IMG/VR virus record: IMGVR_UViG_3300025012_000086 | Location: 1-63,871 of that record | Source: a virus | Length of the DNA stretch: 63,871 bases | Strand: one strand, 5' to 3' | Shown here: one piece after another, positions 38,983 through 63,871 of the stretch | How positions within the stretch are numbered: position 1 is the stretch's first letter | How the letters are laid out: every line of letters begins with the position of its first letter | Made by a program: the position numbers and the translations under genes | Notes under the pieces: model-generated | What the model was told of the DNA's origin: nothing | The model's input: only the letters and a program-made list of their open reading frames with translations | Databases searched by the model: none

Positions 38983-40302
38983 ATGATCAAGACGTATTCA
39001 CAAAGAGATCTTGTCCTCGACATACCGGATAAATTCCTCTTCCTGTTCCAGCCAAAAGACTTCAAGGTGGCCAAGGGTGGACGGTCAAGCGCCAAGTCCT
39101 GGAGCTTCGCCCGCGCTCTCGTCGTCATAGGCTACGCCGAAGAGAAGCGTATCCTCTGCACTCGTGAAGTCCAGAACTCCATTGACGAATCGGTATACCA
39201 GCTACTCAAAGACCAGATCCGCCTACTTGGCCTGGACTGGTTCTATACCCCGTTCCGTGACAGGATTGTCGGCCAGAATGGTACGATCTTTGCATTCGAG
39301 GGACTGGCCACTCACACTATCACCTCCCTGAAGTCATACGAGGGATTCGATATCTGCTGGGTAGAGGAGGCTCACGCCGTCAGTAAGCGGTCATGGGACG
39401 TCCTAATCCCGACCATCCGGAAGGAAGGGTCCGAGATCTGGGTCACCTTCAACCCCGAGCTGGAGAGCGACGAGACGTACAAGAGGTTCGTTACCGAAGC
39501 TACGCCTGACCGGTATTATGTGGTTCATGTCACCTGGCGGGATAATCCCTTCCTCACCGCAAAATCGAATGCAGATCGCCTGGAGTGCAAGCTCAAGCGC
39601 CCAGACGACTACGACAACATCTGGGAAGGCCGCTGCAGGCCTGCCGTGGCTGGAGCCATCTACTACAAGCAGATGGACGAAATGCTGCGACAAGGCCGCA
39701 TATGCAACGTTCCTTACGACCCCTTCCTGAAGGTACACGTCATATCCGACATCGGCCTGAACGACACCACAGCGCTTATCATGGCACAGCGCCGCGCCTC
39801 CGAGATCAGGATTATCGATTACATAGAGGACAACCGTAGGACGTGGGACTCGTACTCAATCGAGCTGAAAGAGCGCAAGTACAACTGGGGTAGGCTCTGG
39901 CTCCCACATGATGGCTTCGCCGCCGATATGAAGAGCAACGGCAAGTCGTCCGCAGACATCCTTCGCAAACTTGGCTGGGACGTGCCAGACCGGGAGGAGA
40001 TCGTAGAGCGTTCTATCGAGGAGGGCATTAAGGTCGCTCGCATGACCATGCCCAGGATCTACGTCGATGTGAAGAAGGCCGCACGGCTCATCGAATGCCT
40101 CAAGCGGTACAGGCGGCACGTCTCGAAACAGACCCTCGCCGAGACAGGCCCGGTCCACGACGAATTCAGCAACGGTGCCGACTCCTTCCGCTACCTCTGT
40201 CTCAACATCGAGAAGATGACCAATGAGGAACGCCGTGGCATGCGCATGCCGAACAGGTTTACTCGCTACGGTCAGCCGCTGGATGACGGCGTCGGTTATT
40301 AG
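38983..40302 (+). CDS. terL: Terminase large subunit
   Basis: 439 residues. ATPase: Walker A-like KGGRSSAKSWSFARAL, Walker B DICWVEEAH, coupling motif TFNPE. Nuclease: HVISDIGLNDTTALIMAQ and later DGFAADMKSNGKSSADIL. The layout is the Terminase_3/PBSX-type translocase-nuclease that docks on the portal. No ribosome site fits the space between promoter and ATG, and no good in-frame start follows before the conserved core. It is followed by an HNH gene and then the portal. Confidence 0.95.
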   Translation: MIKTYSQRDLVLDIPDKFLFLFQPKDFKVAKGGRSSAKSWSFARALVVIGYAEEKRILCTREVQNSIDESVYQLLKDQIRLLGLDWFYTPFRDRIVGQNGTIFAFEGLATHTITSLKSYEGFDICWVEEAHAVSKRSWDVLIPTIRKEGSEIWVTFNPELESDETYKRFVTEATPDRYYVVHVTWRDNPFLTAKSNADRLECKLKRPDDYDNIWEGRCRPAVAGAIYYKQMDEMLRQGRICNVPYDPFLKVHVISDIGLNDTTALIMAQRRASEIRIIDYIEDNRRTWDSYSIELKERKYNWGRLWLPHDGFAADMKSNGKSSADILRKLGWDVPDREEIVERSIEEGIKVARMTMPRIYVDVKKAARLIECLKRYRRHVSKQTLAETGPVHDEFSNGADSFRYLCLNIEKMTNEERRGMRMPNRFTRYGQPLDDGVGY

Positions 40303-40309
40303 GAACTAT

Positions 40310-40840
40310 ATGAAAATATTGGATAAATTTAAAGAAGTACTTATCTATAACGAAACTACCGGGGTTTTCACGTGGAGAGTAACCACAAGCTCCAGGGCAT
40401 TGGCAGGAAGCGCGGCTGGATGTGTCAGCAGTAGTGACGGCTATATCTACATCCAGTACGCCGGAGATAAGGTCCAGGCCCACAGGTTGGCTTGGTATTT
40501 TATCCACGGCTATGACTCGGAATTTGAGATCGACCACCGCGATAGGGTGAGGACGAATAATGCACCAGACAATTTGCGTGAGGCGTCGAGGCAATGCCAG
40601 TCCCGAAATTGCGGTATGCTGTCAAACAATACGTCAGGAATTAAGGGCGTATCGTGGTACAAGCAAACCAACAGGTGGCAGGTCCACATAAAAGTCAACG
40701 GTAAACAAATTCGCCTGGCCTATGTCAAGAACCTACTCGATGCAGCTTACCTTCGCTACGCTGCCGAGCAATGTCTTGGGTTCGCTGATTGCGACACCAT
40801 GTCCAGCGCGAAGGCCTATATCGACTCCCACAAATACTGA
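40310..40840 (+). CDS. HNH homing endonuclease with AP2-like domain (copy 3)
   Basis: 176 residues from ATG 40310 (AGGAAC upstream). HNH core EIDHRDRVRTNNAPDNLREAS, then GIKGVSWYKQTNRWQVHIKVNG and the shared RYAAEQCLGF helix. Inserted between large terminase and portal genes, a frequent homing site in phages. It leaves both neighbours intact. Confidence 0.88.
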   Translation: MKILDKFKEVLIYNETTGVFTWRVTTSSRALAGSAAGCVSSSDGYIYIQYAGDKVQAHRLAWYFIHGYDSEFEIDHRDRVRTNNAPDNLREASRQCQSRNCGMLSNNTSGIKGVSWYKQTNRWQVHIKVNGKQIRLAYVKNLLDAAYLRYAAEQCLGFADCDTMSSAKAYIDSHKY

Positions 40841-50948: not shown

Positions 50949-52280
50949 ATGCCGAATGAATATTACGACAGCACTGGGGCGCCAGCGAATAACTCGCTCG
51001 GCAATCCGGCATTGATAAGAGCTGAATTCGACGCCATCGAAACCGGCTTCGCCAAATTGCCACCGCTCGCCACTCACGCCAATGAAGCGGTGTTCGTTAA
51101 TGCCGGTGCCACTGCCCTTGAATCACTCACTGCAGCCAACGCCAGAACTAGGCTGGGTGCCGAGGCTTCCGCTAATAAGGATGCCAGCGGCGGATTTGTG
51201 GGCCTCACTTTGTTGAAAATCAATTTCAAGAACGTACTCGACACATTCACGTCATTCCTGACAAACTCTAATACAGCGTCAAGAACATACACTTTCCCGG
51301 ACAGCGACGGAACGATAGCGCTAACCACCGACATGCCGCTGAATGGGAGAAAGAATTGGATTATCAACGGAGACTTCAGGTTATGGAGGAGGAATACTTC
51401 CCATACGGTAACCGGTTACGGATCTGACGACAGGTGGTATGTAGGCAGTAATGGGACAACGTTCACCAATAGTAGGCAGGAGTTCTCCCTAGGGCAAACA
51501 GACGTGCCGGATCAGCCAAGATATTACTGTAGGCTGGTTACCGTGTCTGCGGCTGGCGCTGCTAATTATTGCAACAAGGAACAGCGCATAGAAGGAGTCC
51601 ACGTGTTGGCTGGGACCAGCGTAACCCTGTCATTCTACGCCAAGTCCAGCGTCGCCTCCAATATATCCGTTGAATTTGTACAGAATTTCGGTACTGGGGG
51701 TGCTCCGTCAGCTACGGTCACCGGGATAGAGGTAAACAAGATCGCTATCACAACCAACTGGGCGCAGTATACAGTAACCGCCTCGATACCGAGTATTGCC
51801 GGAAAGACACTGGGAACGGACGATAATGATTACATGGCAGTAATATTCTGGGTTGATGCTGGGGCTGATTTCAACGCAAGAACCGACACTCTCGGTCAGT
51901 CTAGTAATACCTATGAATTCTCTCATGTCCAGCTTGAGATTGGCTCATCATCCACCGAGTTCGAAAGAAGAATGGTTGGTGAGGAACTGGAATTGTGCCA
52001 GAGATATTTTCTCGGAAATTCATATGCTTCAGACACTCCAAGATTAGCATTTTCCGGAGACGTTACAACGGCTATAGACTATATAGCTAAGGGGAATTTC
52101 CCGGTAGCGATGAGGATAGCCCCAACAGTTACGCTTACACATAGCGCCAGCAGTAGGTTTGATGCAGTCGCTGGCACTGCGGTAGTTACATCTGTGTCGG
52201 TGGAGGAAACCAGGACCAGCACCAGTACCGGGTCTGCTGGATATTTCGTTAGCACGTATACAGCAGACGCGGAGTTGTGA
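50949..52280 (+). CDS. Tail fibre protein A
   Basis: 443 residues. The PNEYYDSTGAPANNS start anchors it to the tail; a phage-fibre repeat (NSNTASRTYTFPDSDGT) follows. Then comes an N-GDFRLWRRN...YGSDDRWY jelly-roll-like region typical of carbohydrate-binding fibre tips, ending with LELCQRYF. It shares a 54-nt identical stretch with the next gene. Receptor specificity cannot be read from sequence. Confidence 0.85.
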   Translation: MPNEYYDSTGAPANNSLGNPALIRAEFDAIETGFAKLPPLATHANEAVFVNAGATALESLTAANARTRLGAEASANKDASGGFVGLTLLKINFKNVLDTFTSFLTNSNTASRTYTFPDSDGTIALTTDMPLNGRKNWIINGDFRLWRRNTSHTVTGYGSDDRWYVGSNGTTFTNSRQEFSLGQTDVPDQPRYYCRLVTVSAAGAANYCNKEQRIEGVHVLAGTSVTLSFYAKSSVASNISVEFVQNFGTGGAPSATVTGIEVNKIAITTNWAQYTVTASIPSIAGKTLGTDDNDYMAVIFWVDAGADFNARTDTLGQSSNTYEFSHVQLEIGSSSTEFERRMVGEELELCQRYFLGNSYASDTPRLAFSGDVTTAIDYIAKGNFPVAMRIAPTVTLTHSASSRFDAVAGTAVVTSVSVEETRTSTSTGSAGYFVSTYTADAEL

Positions 52281-52283
52281 TTT

Positions 52284-53618
52284 ATGCCAAACGAATACTA
52301 TAATCCAACCGGCGTTCCTGCGGACGGCTCCAGGACTGGCAGTCAGCCTGTCAGGGCGGAATTCGACCTAATTGAGGCTGGAGCTAACAAGCTTCCGCTT
52401 ATAGCCAGCCATGGTAGCCAGGGGATTTCCGTTAACGGAGCAGCAGATGGTCTTGAGTCGATTTCCAACGCCGCATACAATTCAAGAATAGGATCTCTCG
52501 ACAGCACCAAGAAGGATGCCGCAGACGGTTACGCAGGCTTGACCCTGTTGAAAATTAACATAATTAACGCTATTGGAACCATAGCCTCATTTTTCACAAA
52601 CTCTAATACAGCGTCAAGAACATACACTTTCCCGGACAGCGACGGAACGGTGCTGACCAAAGAGAATACCCTTAACTGGGCTAGGAGAAATGTAATAATA
52701 AACGGCGGATTCAATATATGGCAGAGGGCAACCACCCAGGTTGATACCGATGGGTATTACTCTGACGACAGGTGGCTCAACGGTAGATGGCAATCGCTTG
52801 CTACACACACCAGAGAGAGCTTTACCAATGGCCAAACCGACGTACCTGGAAATCCAAAGTTCTTCTCAAGAACCGTGGTTGCGTCGTCACCTGGCGCAGA
52901 TCATTACTGCCACAAGGAACAGAAAATAGAGAATGTTGAGACGTTGTCTGGGGGGATGGCGACGCTATCTTTTTGGGCCAAATCAGACGCCATTAGGAAT
53001 ATGGCGATTGAGTTGTATCAATTCTTCGGAACTGGAGGGGTGGTTCCGTCCGATACGGTATACGGCATAGGCTCACAAAAAATAAGTTTAACTGCTTCGT
53101 GGCAGAAGTTTACGCTGTCCATCGATATACCATCCGTCTCTGGAAAGATAAAAGGCAATACGTTCGACGAATGGAATGGTAACGACTACCTATCTCTGGT
53201 ATTCTGGTTTGATGCTGGTGGTGATTTCGACTCAAGGACTGCGTCTCTTGGCCAGCAGTCGGGTACTTTTGACATAGCTAACGTACAACTAGAGAAAGGT
53301 TCGTCGGCTAGCGAGTTCGAATTATACTCACCGCAGACAGAGTTGAAAATGTGCCAAAGATACTACCAAACTGTCGAGGTGTTATTTAGCGGCAAAGTTA
53401 CCTCTGGACAGACCTACAGAATGATAACCGACCTGCCGGTAATGCCAAGGGCGTATAATTACGGCAGGGATACTTTGTCGTCTAGCGATATAAACTTTGG
53501 CACAACAAGTTCCATTGGTGCATGGACTCACTTCTATTATTTTACGGCAGTTGCCAACGGGTCGGGCATGGGGCAATATAGGTCTACAATATATATTGAT
53601 GCTGAGCTGGAAAACTAA
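52284..53618 (+). CDS. Tail fibre protein B (paralogue of A)
   Basis: 444 residues with the same plan as the preceding gene: PNEYYNPTGVPADGS start, the identical NSNTASRTYTFPDSDGT segment, INGGFNIWQRATTQ...DDRW, and LKMCQRYYQ near the end. The binding region is diverged, so the two may recognise different receptors or form a hetero-assembly. Starts 3 bases after the previous stop. Confidence 0.85.
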   Translation: MPNEYYNPTGVPADGSRTGSQPVRAEFDLIEAGANKLPLIASHGSQGISVNGAADGLESISNAAYNSRIGSLDSTKKDAADGYAGLTLLKINIINAIGTIASFFTNSNTASRTYTFPDSDGTVLTKENTLNWARRNVIINGGFNIWQRATTQVDTDGYYSDDRWLNGRWQSLATHTRESFTNGQTDVPGNPKFFSRTVVASSPGADHYCHKEQKIENVETLSGGMATLSFWAKSDAIRNMAIELYQFFGTGGVVPSDTVYGIGSQKISLTASWQKFTLSIDIPSVSGKIKGNTFDEWNGNDYLSLVFWFDAGGDFDSRTASLGQQSGTFDIANVQLEKGSSASEFELYSPQTELKMCQRYYQTVEVLFSGKVTSGQTYRMITDLPVMPRAYNYGRDTLSSSDINFGTTSSIGAWTHFYYFTAVANGSGMGQYRSTIYIDAELEN

Positions 53619-54103: not shown

Positions 54104-56668
54104 ATGGCATTTCGTGGCTTCAATTCAATCAACGAGTGGCAAAACGCAATATCTCCACTCGTTGATGATTACAAGAATCTTAGGTATGATTACGATGCTA
54201 AGGACGCAGAGATAAACCAGCTTAATCTGGCAGCGTACAATTTTCGCATGGCCAATAAGGAGGCCTTCGATAAATTCAGAGATGCTCACAATAAATCAGA
54301 AGAACTGTATCGTAAACTTATAAGCGATGGTATTGACGCTTATTCGATACAAACAGATCCGTCACACGGCTGGATTGCCGCCAGGGCCGAGCGTGACAAC
54401 CTCGCCATACTGTCAGAGAATCATCCAGATTATGAGTCTATAAAGGCTGGCAGGGTTAACGCCATAAAAGAGAAGACTGCCATCGACATTAAAGCCAAAG
54501 AAGTGGCGAGGAGCATAGAGTCTGTCGGAGATAGAATTAATGTTTCCGGCGGATACGAGTCTTCTGGAAGAAAGTCTGACTTCGAAATGGAGTTCGACAA
54601 ACAGCTTAGTGAAATAAATACAAAAAAACAAGAGATAAAACAGGAGTACGAGAGGGTTACCGGCGAGCCATATGACAAGATGTCAAAGGCAAGCCCAGCC
54701 TCATCAGTTGCCATCAGGGCGTTGGCTGAATTACAGGAGAGAGAGAGGGTTCTTTGGGCATTCAGGAAGTCGCAACCAAAGCAGCTCGCCCCAAGGACAG
54801 ACCCCACGCCTAGCAATATCGATAAGATGGATTCTCAGATAGAGGCTATGAATAATGAAATAGCAGAGCTTGAGAAAATTTGGCTTTCTGGTAACAAGTA
54901 CGATCAGCATCTTATCCGATTGATAGCCAGCGGTGTAAGGACCGACGTTGGTATTCTAAGCGCAAGGCGCGACGCTGTCGTAACCGAATTCCAGAAGCTT
55001 CCGCAAAAACCAAGCATATCTGGCCAGCCAAGCAAGACATACAAAACTAAGGCTCAGGTGACGGCGTCTGGAGGAGCGACTAAGACTAAGGCCATTCCTG
55101 TTTATGGAAAGTTGAAGATAACGCCGTTGCCACGCGGCCAAAAACCTGATACAGAAATAGAGCTTCCTGAAGCGTCTATCGATCCAGTCCTCGACCCGCA
55201 AGACGCAGTATTGGATATGCCGCTTCCCGAGTCTGACGTACAGCCAGCCACGCAGGACCAGCCAGAACAACCACAGACCTACGATGACATCGACTCTCAG
55301 CTTCGTGATATAAACGAACAGAGAGCGGCATTGATAAAAGATTATGAGGCAGCAACTGGGCAGCGGTATACCGGAACTCTGAAGGGAGAAGAGGCTTCGG
55401 CCTACGTTCCACTACTCAGGGAGCTTCAGGAGAAGGAGCGTATCTTGTGGGCCTCCAGAAGGGCGGTTTCTGGCCAATTCGAGCTTCACGACGCAGACGA
55501 TATACAACCCAGCCAGGAAGACGCGCCTGTAGCGGATATCATAGAGCCAACTCCGCAACCAGTCCAGCGTGGTGCGGCAGAACAGAACGTCATACTCGAT
55601 GAGCAGACATTCACCGACCCCCGGAAGTTATACGCAGACAGATTGTCACCAGAAAGGCTGGCCTCAATAGAAGAGGCGTTCTCTTCCATCGCTACATTAA
55701 AGGGCTTTCTCTCCAGTCAGAATATCGACTATAGCGAACAGGATATCCAGGTTGGCGGGATTAACGCTGAGCCTAGTGGTGGTGAACTACTTTTGCGTGA
55801 CCAGGTGGTTATCGATTATCAGCCACCTCCCAGCCAAGGCGGTATTACTATTGAGCCTGAATTGACTTTAAGGCCCACCGGCTTTACAGTTACTAGAGAA
55901 AAACAACCGAAATTGAAATTGCCAAGGGGGGCTACCTATATGGCGGAACCGGATTATTTCGAACAAGTTCCTGGATTCAAGCTGCCGCAGGGCCAGTCAA
56001 CCCAGTCGGCGGCGACACCAGTAAAACCAGATGAATCATATATCAAGCCAGGACTCGCCACCGTTGAGGGGCGGGTTGAAAACCTTATCAGGACCGATAA
56101 TCCGCTTACTCAGGCGGCTGCTGCTGCCGCTGAAAGGAAGTATCAGGCTAAGGGGCTACTGCAATCGTCAGGTGCCGTCCAGGCCGGGGTTGGTGCTGCT
56201 ATGGAACAGGCTGTCCAGATCGCAACGCCTGACGCAGCGCTCTATGGAGGTCTTGCGCAACAGCGGCAACGTACCGACCTTGAGACATCCGTCAACAACC
56301 AACTCGCAGAAATCGAGCGGAAGAAGTTTGAAAACAACGCGCTGATCACAGCCTCCCTGTCTTCTCAGGATATTTCCGGGAAAAAGGAACTCCAAACCCT
56401 GGCCGATACCGCAGCCAAGGAGAGGATACAGCTTGAGAATGAGTGGAAGGACTACCTGTCTCAGAGCCAATACGACACCGCTGAAACCCAGGCCCTCATG
56501 CAGTCAGCTGGGGCGATGGGCCAGGAGCTTACCGGCAGTATCGAGCGCCTGCTCAGGGATACCAATATCGTCAATAAGCAGGACGCCATCGCTGCCCTTA
56601 TGGCCCAGTATAAGGCGCAGCTCAACACTGTGGCCGCTACCGCAGGCATAACTCTTGAATGGGACTGA
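54104..56668 (+). CDS. Large internal/ejection protein with coiled coils
   Basis: 854 residues, mostly helical. It contains two copies of one 60-residue unit: about nt 54593-54772 (FDKQLSEINTKKQEIKQEY...ERERVLWAFRKS) and 55289-55465 (IDSQLRDINEQRAALIKDY...EKERILWASRRA). The C-terminal half is helical with GAVQAGVGAAMEQAV. It opens the gene run leading to the polyvalent protein, like the internal-core proteins of other podoviruses. No catalytic domain is recognised. Confidence 0.72.
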   Translation: MAFRGFNSINEWQNAISPLVDDYKNLRYDYDAKDAEINQLNLAAYNFRMANKEAFDKFRDAHNKSEELYRKLISDGIDAYSIQTDPSHGWIAARAERDNLAILSENHPDYESIKAGRVNAIKEKTAIDIKAKEVARSIESVGDRINVSGGYESSGRKSDFEMEFDKQLSEINTKKQEIKQEYERVTGEPYDKMSKASPASSVAIRALAELQERERVLWAFRKSQPKQLAPRTDPTPSNIDKMDSQIEAMNNEIAELEKIWLSGNKYDQHLIRLIASGVRTDVGILSARRDAVVTEFQKLPQKPSISGQPSKTYKTKAQVTASGGATKTKAIPVYGKLKITPLPRGQKPDTEIELPEASIDPVLDPQDAVLDMPLPESDVQPATQDQPEQPQTYDDIDSQLRDINEQRAALIKDYEAATGQRYTGTLKGEEASAYVPLLRELQEKERILWASRRAVSGQFELHDADDIQPSQEDAPVADIIEPTPQPVQRGAAEQNVILDEQTFTDPRKLYADRLSPERLASIEEAFSSIATLKGFLSSQNIDYSEQDIQVGGINAEPSGGELLLRDQVVIDYQPPPSQGGITIEPELTLRPTGFTVTREKQPKLKLPRGATYMAEPDYFEQVPGFKLPQGQSTQSAATPVKPDESYIKPGLATVEGRVENLIRTDNPLTQAAAAAAERKYQAKGLLQSSGAVQAGVGAAMEQAVQIATPDAALYGGLAQQRQRTDLETSVNNQLAEIERKKFENNALITASLSSQDISGKKELQTLADTAAKERIQLENEWKDYLSQSQYDTAETQALMQSAGAMGQELTGSIERLLRDTNIVNKQDAIAALMAQYKAQLNTVAATAGITLEWD

Positions 56669-56669
56669 G

Positions 56670-57203
56670 ATGTTTATAGCCAAGCCATCGATACACCGAT
56701 ACTCCATCATCGACGCCGGGCGACTTACCAGGTTATTCAGATCTGACGGAATATTTTTTGCTTCAGGTGATGATTTTTCCGACATAACCAAGCTCGCAGC
56801 TTTCGTTGAGAATAACCTGCGAACTGACCACGTGTATATTCTCGGAAAAGACCCCAGGTATGAGGCTTTTGTTTTCCTGCCGATGCACACTACCTCGTGC
56901 TTCTCTGCGCATTTCGCCGTCAAGGACGGGCACAGGGGTAGGGAGGCATTCGGCCATCTCGTGGAATCCGCCAAATGGGTATTCTCAAACACGCCATGCA
57001 GGGCCATAATGGGATTCATTCGAGCGGCAAACAAGGAGGCTCGCATGATGGCTTCACATGTTGGGATGAAGAGGATTGGGAGAACAAATGGAACCATGAA
57101 GTTTAATGGAGAGATGGTTGATGAAATTATCTACCAATGTACCATTAATGACTTTAATGAAAAATATGGCCGCACCCTTGGGGCCATAGTGAAGGAGATC
57201 TGA
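56670..57203 (+). CDS. GNAT-like acetyltransferase (DUF2824-type)
   Basis: 177 residues from ATG 56670, one base past the upstream stop. HFAVKDGHRGREAFGHLVESAKWVF and GFIRAANKEARMMASHVGMKRIGR correspond to the GNAT acetyl-CoA-binding loop and following helix. Similar proteins lie among ejection genes in P22-like phages. The substrate is unknown; it may modify a virion or host protein. Confidence 0.72.
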   Translation: MFIAKPSIHRYSIIDAGRLTRLFRSDGIFFASGDDFSDITKLAAFVENNLRTDHVYILGKDPRYEAFVFLPMHTTSCFSAHFAVKDGHRGREAFGHLVESAKWVFSNTPCRAIMGFIRAANKEARMMASHVGMKRIGRTNGTMKFNGEMVDEIIYQCTINDFNEKYGRTLGAIVKEI

Positions 57204-61099: not shown

Positions 61100-63871
61100 A
61101 TGATCCCATTCGAGCAGATCGAAGGCCTACCTGAATATCAGAGTGCCACCCCGGAACAAAAGCTCTCAGTCCAGAACGAATACGCCAAAGACTTCTGGAC
61201 TGAGGTTTATCAAGACCAGGAATTCCAAGCAGCACCAGAAGAAGAGCGGAACCAGCTGATCAGCACTTTCGACCAGCGTTTCGGCCCAGACGTCCGTGGT
61301 TTTGTAGAGGAACAGATCGAGGGAAGCCGTCGAGGGTTTCTGGCGAATATGTTCGCCCTCGTGAAGTCCGGTGGAAAGGCGACTCTGGCAGCTTCCAGGA
61401 TTGCCGACGACATGGCCAGCGGTGAGCTTGACAGCAATACAGCCTCCATCCTGGCCGAAAGCATCCTTGCCGAACAGAAGAAATATACCCCGGAAGAATT
61501 GCGAGAGCTACAGGAGGCAGTGGTCGAGCCGTCCGAGGAATGGGAGAAGGCCGAGGGCCTTAGCGAGAAAGCCAAGGCCGCATGGGACATGATCAAGGCT
61601 GTTGCCGGTCAGGCTGCTTTCAACCCCAAGGGCATGGCCTATATGACCGCCGAGCAGGCTGGCAACATCGTTCCTGGTATGGCCGGTATGGTTGGCGGTG
61701 CGAAGGCTGGGGCCGGTGTCGGTAGTGTCGTTCCAGGCGTAGGGACAGCCGCTGGCGCGACGATAGGCGGTGTCGTAGGTGGCTTTCTTGGACAGTGGGG
61801 GATCGAGGCTGGATCTGAATTTCGTGGCATGGTGGCACAGGAATTGCAGAGACGAGGCCTGCAGCCAACCGAGGAGAACGTCCTTGAGATACTGGCTGAC
61901 GATAAATTCGTTGAGGAGTCAATCGATAACGCCAGGGATAAGGCCACGGCCACATCCGCCGTAAGCGCAGCAATGAACGTTGCCACCGGCAGGATTGCCT
62001 CCGTCCCTTTCAAGGCAGCGCAAAAAGAGGCCATCGCCAGATTGGGTGCCGATGCTACGGCTGACCAGGTCAGTATGGCCACCAAGGAGATCCTCGCCTC
62101 CAGGACACTGACGCAGCGGGCAGCTACCGGCGCAAAGGCCTACGGAGCACAGGTTGCCGAGGAACCATTATCAGAGGCCGCTGGCCAATATGCCGGATAT
62201 GGCAAGGTTGATCTGGGGGAAGTTGGCCTTGAGACTCTTGGCGGCATAGGTGGATCTGTCGCAGAAACGCCAGCAGCCATCTCTTCATTCGGTGAGGGCG
62301 TCAAGGCTGGCACTCAGCAGCAGGCACCTCCTCCACCCCCTGAACCTATTGATGTAAAACCGGTCGAGCCGGTATCTATTCTGGCCGCAGAGAGCCTTGA
62401 GGAGGCTATAGGCGCTTTCAGGAATTCCCTCAACGTGAACCAGGAGCCAACTCCAGGAGCAGAGCCAATAGCGACGCCGTGGGGAACAACCGCAGAGGAT
62501 TCCGCCAGAGTATTCGAGGAGGCTGGTATCACTCAGGCCGAAGAAGACATAGCGGCGCGTGAGGCCGAAGGCGACATAAGAACAAGGAGACAGGCCGACC
62601 TTGAAGAGGCGTTTGCCGGGGAGTTACAGCCGTCATCTGCGCAGGAATCAGCCGAGGTGTTCGCCGCCTCGCCAGAGACAGGTCTTGAGCAGAAGCTTGG
62701 CCGGGTCGAAGAGGGTGCAAAATTCGCCGGTACTGAATACGCTAAGCCGCCAGTGGCCAAGACCGAGAGGCGTGAAGCTGCGGAGGAGGCATTCACGGAA
62801 GCGCCTGCAGAATTTGCCAGATCGAGCGGTGCCCCATTTTCGAGCGAGAAGGCCCTCAGGACGAGCGCTAAGCAACGCGGGGTGGATCTATCAGGTTACA
62901 ACGTGATCGAGCGACAGGGTGGCTTTGTGGCTACTCCTGTGGCAGCTAAAGAGGAAGACGTTTCGGCGCAGGTAAAAAGGGAGGAGGCTAGGAAGAAGCT
63001 GTTCCCGGAGGAATGGACCCCCAGAGCCGAGAAAGAACTTCAGGACGCCAGGGCTGCAGTCGCTGCAGTAGCCAGGCCCAAAGTCGTCACCGCCCCTAAG
63101 TCAGTTGCTGTCGGCCAGGAAGTTGCAGTGGAGCCAACCGAACCGCAGAAAGAGGCCGGGAATTATAAAAAAGCACATGTCTCTATCGACGGCCTTGATA
63201 TCAGCGTGGAGAATCCGGTAGGCAGTGTTCGTAGTGGAATCAGCAAAGAGGGCGAGCCGTGGTCAACCGAGATGAAGAGCGACTACGGATATGTCCGTGG
63301 AACCAAGGGGTACGACAAGGATCATCTCGACGTATTCATCAAGCCAGGCCATGCTGGCGGAAGCGAGAATGTCTTTGTCGTCAACCAGTATAACCAGGCT
63401 GGGAAATTCGATGAACACAAGGTCGTGCTCGGTGCTCAATCCGAGAGAGAGGCCATGGAGATCTACAACTCCAACTATGCGAAAGGGTGGACTGGCGGAA
63501 AGTCGGTAGTCTCTATGCCGATGGCCGAATTTAAGGAGTGGTCTAAGAGTGGGGGGCCTGCTCGTGGCGCTCTTACACAGGGGGCGGTCAAGACCGAACC
63601 CACCAAGGCCGAGCCGCAGGAGGCTGACGTTGCCGAGATAGTAGAGCAAAAAACTGCAGAGAGAATTGCCACAAAAACCAGGCAATTTGAGGGCAACAAA
63701 GTCTTTACCGCCGACAAGGTGGAGAATGCCAGGAAGAGCCTCAAAGATGCCCGTGGTAGACTGGGCGCCGGGGTTGACCCTGAGCTGCTGGGTCACGTCA
63801 TCACTATCGGTGGGGCTTATTTTGAGCAGGGCGTAAGGGATTTCGCCGAGTGGTCGGGCAAGGTGATCGCC
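61100..63871 (+). CDS. Giant polyvalent virion protein, N-terminal part (3' end outside window)
   Basis: 924 codons, open at the right edge. I chose ATG 61100 over 61093, which overlaps the upstream stop out of frame. Residues 1-130 are helical; 189-238 form Gly zippers (MVGGAKAGAGVGSVVPG) that may insert in a membrane. A long Glu/Ala/Pro-rich linker follows. At nt 63179-63552 lies an inorganic-pyrophosphatase-like (InPase, polyvalent-type) domain with SDYGYVRGTKGYDKDHLDVF. The last 200 bases match 1309-1520, placing this as the other end of the gene beginning the window. Likely packaged and injected with the DNA. Confidence 0.9.
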   Translation, partial: MIPFEQIEGLPEYQSATPEQKLSVQNEYAKDFWTEVYQDQEFQAAPEEERNQLISTFDQRFGPDVRGFVEEQIEGSRRGFLANMFALVKSGGKATLAASRIADDMASGELDSNTASILAESILAEQKKYTPEELRELQEAVVEPSEEWEKAEGLSEKAKAAWDMIKAVAGQAAFNPKGMAYMTAEQAGNIVPGMAGMVGGAKAGAGVGSVVPGVGTAAGATIGGVVGGFLGQWGIEAGSEFRGMVAQELQRRGLQPTEENVLEILADDKFVEESIDNARDKATATSAVSAAMNVATGRIASVPFKAAQKEAIARLGADATADQVSMATKEILASRTLTQRAATGAKAYGAQVAEEPLSEAAGQYAGYGKVDLGEVGLETLGGIGGSVAETPAAISSFGEGVKAGTQQQAPPPPPEPIDVKPVEPVSILAAESLEEAIGAFRNSLNVNQEPTPGAEPIATPWGTTAEDSARVFEEAGITQAEEDIAAREAEGDIRTRRQADLEEAFAGELQPSSAQESAEVFAASPETGLEQKLGRVEEGAKFAGTEYAKPPVAKTERREAAEEAFTEAPAEFARSSGAPFSSEKALRTSAKQRGVDLSGYNVIERQGGFVATPVAAKEEDVSAQVKREEARKKLFPEEWTPRAEKELQDARAAVAAVARPKVVTAPKSVAVGQEVAVEPTEPQKEAGNYKKAHVSIDGLDISVENPVGSVRSGISKEGEPWSTEMKSDYGYVRGTKGYDKDHLDVFIKPGHAGGSENVFVVNQYNQAGKFDEHKVVLGAQSEREAMEIYNSNYAKGWTGGKSVVSMPMAEFKEWSKSGGPARGALTQGAVKTEPTKAEPQEADVAEIVEQKTAERIATKTRQFEGNKVFTADKVENARKSLKDARGRLGAGVDPELLGHVITIGGAYFEQGVRDFAEWSGKVIA
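62940..63871. repeat. Right copy of terminal homology with pyrophosphatase cassette
   Basis: Positions 62940-63115 align to 1-176; about 63660-63871 align to 1309-1520. The unique part (63116-63659) encodes the InPase-like domain in place of the ParB/RelSpo segment of the left copy. The frame is preserved at both joints. Confidence 0.9.

Follow-up and report, generated by a model that had tools for sequence, protein, structure and literature searches.

InPase and RelA/SpoT-like domains occupy the same slot in a giant phage polyvalent protein

Results

A giant gene split across the two ends of a phage contig

The window, by which we mean the whole stretch of 63,871 nt analyzed here, begins and ends inside one and the same gene of ~3,300 to 3,500 codons that encodes a giant polyvalent protein. 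The N-terminal 924 codons lie at the contig end (61100–63871, plus strand, as are all parts of this gene given below) in an open reading frame (ORF) that runs off the window. The C-terminal 2,844 codons lie at the contig start (3–8537), where a cassette with a RelA/SpoT-like domain (hereafter RelSpo) is followed by a backbone in which Pfam recognizes DUF7178-like, LPD23, and LPD38 domains. Complete homologous genes of 3,441 to 3,542 codons are found on 3 phage contigs (L082, L086, and L087); the N-terminal part of the ORF at our contig end is homologous to these genes (85% for L082, 53% for L086), and in all 3 this part is joined to the piece found at our contig start in one uninterrupted gene.

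Within the window, the polyvalent gene follows the structural genes and closes their block, and the terminase has its nearest relatives in Caudoviricetes sp. and Pseudomonas H66-like phages (45–48%). A Pfam scan of the window protein matched no methylase or helicase family, a PADLOC run gave no meaningful match, and a genome-wide profile search of bacterial genome contigs found no prophage homologs of the backbone.

Elsewhere in the window, the ORF of the terminase large subunit (38983–40302) overlaps another (40223–40840) that matches HNH endonucleases (phrog_99, E = 1.7e-56) and may be an insertion of the homing type next to terL. Two neighboring ORFs (50949–52280, 443 aa, and 52284–53618, 444 aa) look by eye like diverged tandem copies that both begin with MPNEYY, have inner motifs in common, and perhaps encode tail-fiber or appendage proteins. 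A 182-aa ORF (56655–57203) that resembles GNAT acetyltransferases by eye lies after the structural genes and ahead of the polyvalent gene.

The contig end encodes an InPase domain

The N-terminal part of the polyvalent protein contains an InPase domain (PF18823; 63143–63547) with an OB fold like that of family I inorganic pyrophosphatases (PPases), as recognized by Pfam, AlphaFold2, and Foldseek. The Pfam match spans protein residues 682 to 816 and 134 of the 135 profile positions (E = 7.4e-51, 172 bits against a cutoff of 26.8). The domain was found again in a whole-record search (E = 1.1e-53), and the same profile search matched none of 14 control genomes; chance is excluded as the source of the match. 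The first-pass annotation of this DNA had named an InPase domain at 63179–63552 and pointed to the polyvalent InPase family profile as a check; with a full-length match above the cutoff its identification stands, and the extent is slightly larger than proposed. The curated Pyrophosphatase profile (PF00719) gives a match below threshold (E = 0.11, 12.8 bits versus 23.5).

The domain itself is of a known kind in a known kind of protein. We recorded 344 confirmed InPase stretches in viral contigs, 465 phage records with the domain, and 299 stretches in bacterial genome contigs. Among the fetched loci, 161 of 162 InPase ORFs are at least 800 aa long, and a relative of the downstream region designated C1 follows InPase in 40 of them. 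InPase upstream of C1 is therefore a widespread arrangement, and RelSpo is the rarer one here.

An AlphaFold2 model of the domain based on an alignment of 68 InPase domains (A1) reached a mean pLDDT of 88.6. The best 50 PDB matches in Foldseek were all family I inorganic pyrophosphatases (best E = 1.3e-4), and the 50 VIA-align matches listed were likewise inorganic pyrophosphatases, with Z scores up to 7.9 (rmsd 3.3 over about 110 aligned residues); a Z below 8 is weak taken alone, and the sequence evidence agrees with it. What we found was thus a family match together with a pyrophosphatase fold, rather than the missing match and different fold that had been named as speaking against the domain. 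The A1 profile picks up PPases at the same motif (E 0.03–0.4), and hhalign (E about 1e-5) pairs SDYGYVRGTKGYDKDHLDVFI with the YGY...DxDxxD stretch of E. coli PPase. The motif YGYVRGTKGYDKDHLDVF, the peptide cited in the first-pass annotation, was located at 63284–63337 and aligns with Y55-G-Y57 ... D65-x-D67-x-x-D70 of this enzyme.

A largely conserved predicted metal site with an incomplete pyrophosphate-binding set

The roles of the E. coli PPase residues are established for family I PPases, and we took their numbering from solved mutants. The alignment is confident for the Y55–D70 stretch, in which Y48, D58, D60, and D63 of InPase are the equivalents of Y55, D65, D67, and D70; all other equivalences are looser. 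Invariant in the 68 sequences are E23, R30, D58, D63, D90, E91, K93, Y108, and N111, and D60 is found in 67. Under the looser equivalences, the invariant E23 lines up with E20, the invariant D90 (or the likewise invariant E91) with D102, and R30 occupies the position of K29. The equivalent of E31 is lost, with a glycine (G32) there throughout the 68 sequences, and position 81, the probable equivalent of D97, is Asp in 55 and Asn in 13 of them, including the window copy. For R43 and K142, no conserved equivalent stands out in the 68 domains, and the alignment at K104 is uncertain. InPase domains are described as lacking a beta hairpin of characterized family I PPases; here, the segment that separates the equivalents of K29 and Y55 is several residues shorter than in the E. 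coli enzyme.

By this alignment, the metal site is mostly kept, whereas the pyrophosphate-binding set survives only in part. Catalysis is thus plausible, and metal-dependent hydrolysis of a phosphoanhydride is the most likely activity to be deduced from the conserved residues; the Asn at the D97 position, the loss of E31, and the want of clear equivalents of R43 and K142 point to an altered substrate or weak PPase activity. The same features, together with the poor conservation of the basic PPi-binding positions, would also fit a domain that kept the pyrophosphatase fold, lost its chemistry, and now serves to bind nucleotides or phosphate or acts on another phosphoester. We regard this as unlikely, though deserving of serious attention, since the acidic cluster D58/D60/D63/D90 is near-perfect in 68 diverse sequences and argues for a retained metal-dependent site. 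Nothing in this analysis pointed to an ADP-ribose substrate. Our literature search found no enzymatic assay of the InPase family and no solved structure of the domain; among PDB chains, InPase was found only in the portal of phage Pa193 (9B41), which lacks density for residues 529–765, where the domain lies (PMC11042391).

Two cassettes between matching flanks

The segment upstream of InPase (62940–63115, ending in SVAVG) matches the first bases of the contig (1–176) with 85% identity (E = 8e-52). The downstream flanks of the two cassettes, 63641–63871 on the InPase side and 1290–1520 on the RelSpo side, match with 96% identity from 63646–63871 to 1295–1520 (E = 2e-102). Between these flanks, the sequences are unrelated: the end of the contig encodes InPase, its start RelSpo.

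The alternative cassette (177–1289) consists of an N-terminal segment, ParB-like by eye only and without a match in the libraries searched, and a RelA/SpoT synthetase-like domain (Pfam match about 603–887). The window copy scores just under the Pfam RelA_SpoT cutoff of 27 (23.7–25.3 bits, E = 5.9e-5), and the best of three homologs of this domain reaches E = 1.1e-5. In Foldseek, a model of the domain matches a small alarmone synthetase (E = 5e-6) as well as Tas1 and CapRel, at a pLDDT of only 63.7. The reading of this segment as RelSpo in the first-pass annotation is thus supported by both family and fold matches. A search of the annotated phage collection turned up no relatives of the RelSpo cassette.

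The last 99 bases of the contig (63773–63871) are an exact direct repeat of 1422–1520, with a mismatch at base 63772. Most likely, this repeat is a k-mer overlap left by the assembler where two alleles meet; the contig wraps around the phage genome. Because an exact overlap of this kind is expected where an assembler joins two alleles, the two cassettes are, as judged from the contig structure, probably two alleles in the sampled population and not a pair within one genome. The earlier claim that InPase exactly replaces RelSpo is accordingly correct with regard to the flanks, and its "alternative cassette" is most likely a population allele. An exact-pattern search of viral contigs with the window's own flanks gave no match, and the InPase allele beyond 63871 was not recovered. 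Joining the contig end straight to its start as one tandem ORF was considered and rejected, since the reading frame would not continue: a full codon closes the ORF at 63871, and the other frame starts at base 3.

Related genes carry one cassette each

The complete gene of L082 (a 60.7-kb contig) has the order N-terminal part of the window, RelSpo cassette, and C-terminal part of the window. Its identity to the window is 74% over residues 1–619 and 85% at the N-terminus; the C-terminal part shares 90%, and most of what follows the slot shares 97%. The order of parts is the same in L086 (63.6 kb), at 45–55% identity to the window. The complete gene of L087 (61.7 kb; 3,451 codons) has InPase at residues 670–805, followed 35 residues later by the same downstream region, and the more distant L005 and L012 have InPase after a recognizable N-terminal region. 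Across the whole records, L082 and L086 have RelSpo alone, L087, L005, and L012 have InPase alone, and L084 has neither; L005, L012, and L084 are fragments in which an absence means little. Among the related records compared, the window alone has both domains, and these lie at opposite contig ends. The complete homologs, with RelSpo only in L082 and L086 and InPase only in L087, establish the slot.

These comparisons also bear on 2 other explanations of the contig. One is a single phage genome in which the gene is duplicated or in tandem, holds the two cassettes, and switches between them. One contig does hold both with homologous flanks, and Iyer et al. suggested cassette recombination in polyvalent loci for kinase modules; however, the end-to-start join breaks the frame, the 99-base overlap fits an assembly junction, and the 3 related full-length genes have one cassette each, which makes such a genome highly improbable. 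The other, that misassembly brought in the end segment from an unrelated phage, is scarcely credible: the contig end is indeed an assembly junction, but ORF 61100–63871 has no interruption, L082 and L086 have homologs of its N-terminus, and in L087, L005, and L012 the same N-terminal region leads into InPase at the corresponding position.

The RelSpo domains provide a record of exchange at the slot. Their identity is only 62.5% between the window and L082 and 76% between L082 and L086, whose backbones (N-terminal and slot-adjacent) share about 51%. In a count of three-taxon sites, the RelSpo domain favors L082 with L086 (37 sites) over the window with L082 (9 sites; p = 4e-5), but in backbone segments it is the window and L082 that pair (p < 1e-25). 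Cassette and backbone thus give conflicting trees, and the cassettes are therefore exchanged by recombination.

The RelSpo domain of L086 (aa 690–897) and L082 (aa 703–910) is better conserved than the adjoining backbone, a sign of cassette transfer.

The SVAVG that precedes InPase at the window end also ends the upstream flank of the window's RelSpo allele; L005 and L087 have SVALG or SLALG as a leader before InPase, and L082 is without it. This suggests that RelSpo entered an InPase-type allele, a direction that rests on one allele.

In the distant proteins L089, L094, L099, L101, and L103–L105, Pfam finds neither InPase nor RelA_SpoT before DUF7178 (1,449 residues scanned in L089), and slot exchange is therefore documented for the close group only. 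These distant proteins share the DUF7178-like backbone and have long N-terminal regions; LPD22 is present in two of them and LPD23 in one.

Discussion

InPase was placed in phage polyvalent proteins by Iyer et al. (2017), who predicted its role and proposed that it clears PPi or attacks nucleotide signals (PMC5512222). What the locus described here adds is modest but new: a well-resolved exchange of domains at one fixed slot.

Our favored reading, which we hold to be fairly likely, is that InPase fills an exchangeable effector slot of a giant tailed-phage polyvalent protein that exists in two alleles, is ejected into the host, and there binds Mg2+ and hydrolyzes a phosphoanhydride. Depending on the homologous gene, the slot holds InPase or a pyrophosphokinase cassette of the RelA/SpoT type. 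The genome would have been assembled as a circle with the contig ends inside the polyvalent gene, where two coexisting alleles diverge, and this would place both cassettes in the window. The protein is probably packaged and ejected together with the DNA, as suggested by gene position and the precedent of the family. Once in the cell, InPase would bind Mg2+ through its conserved acidic residues and hydrolyze a phosphoanhydride; acting early, it may clear PPi arising from phage nucleic acid synthesis or break down a nucleotide signal of the host. The product of RelSpo alleles, by contrast, would be a pyrophosphorylated nucleotide or RNA.

The mutual replacement of InPase and RelSpo in closely related proteins is a natural experiment and suggests that both bear on one and the same aspect of host physiology. 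A bolder version sees the slot as a dedicated pyrophosphate/alarmone cargo bay, in which recombination lets phages of one population trade an enzyme that transfers pyrophosphate (RelSpo) for one that hydrolyzes pyrophosphate or alarmones (InPase), two ways of meeting a single nucleotide-based defense of the host; we think this improbable, but if true it would make InPase an injected anti-alarmone enzyme. In any case, the slot alleles supply matched pairs of proteins for assays.

The domain agrees with PF18823 InPase as described by Iyer et al. (PMC5512222) in its full-length profile match and its place inside a giant multidomain phage protein. It differs in that the slot is filled with RelA/SpoT in other alleles and homologs and in the Asn at the D97 equivalent. 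With family I PPases (PF00719, E. coli Ppa), it shares the predicted fold as well as the YGY and DxDxxD motifs, but identity to E. coli Ppa is about 15–20%, the domain is shorter at about 135 aa, E31 is lost, and it is part of a giant protein. In antirestriction polyvalent proteins of the DarB type (phrog_10089, P1 DarB), InPase and the downstream C1 follow in the same order, though the window protein is without a Pfam methylase or helicase match. Polymorphic toxins (PMC3482391) likewise swap effector domains on a conserved backbone by recombination; the slot described here is internal and not C-terminal, and nucleotides or pyrophosphate are the predicted targets of its cargo.
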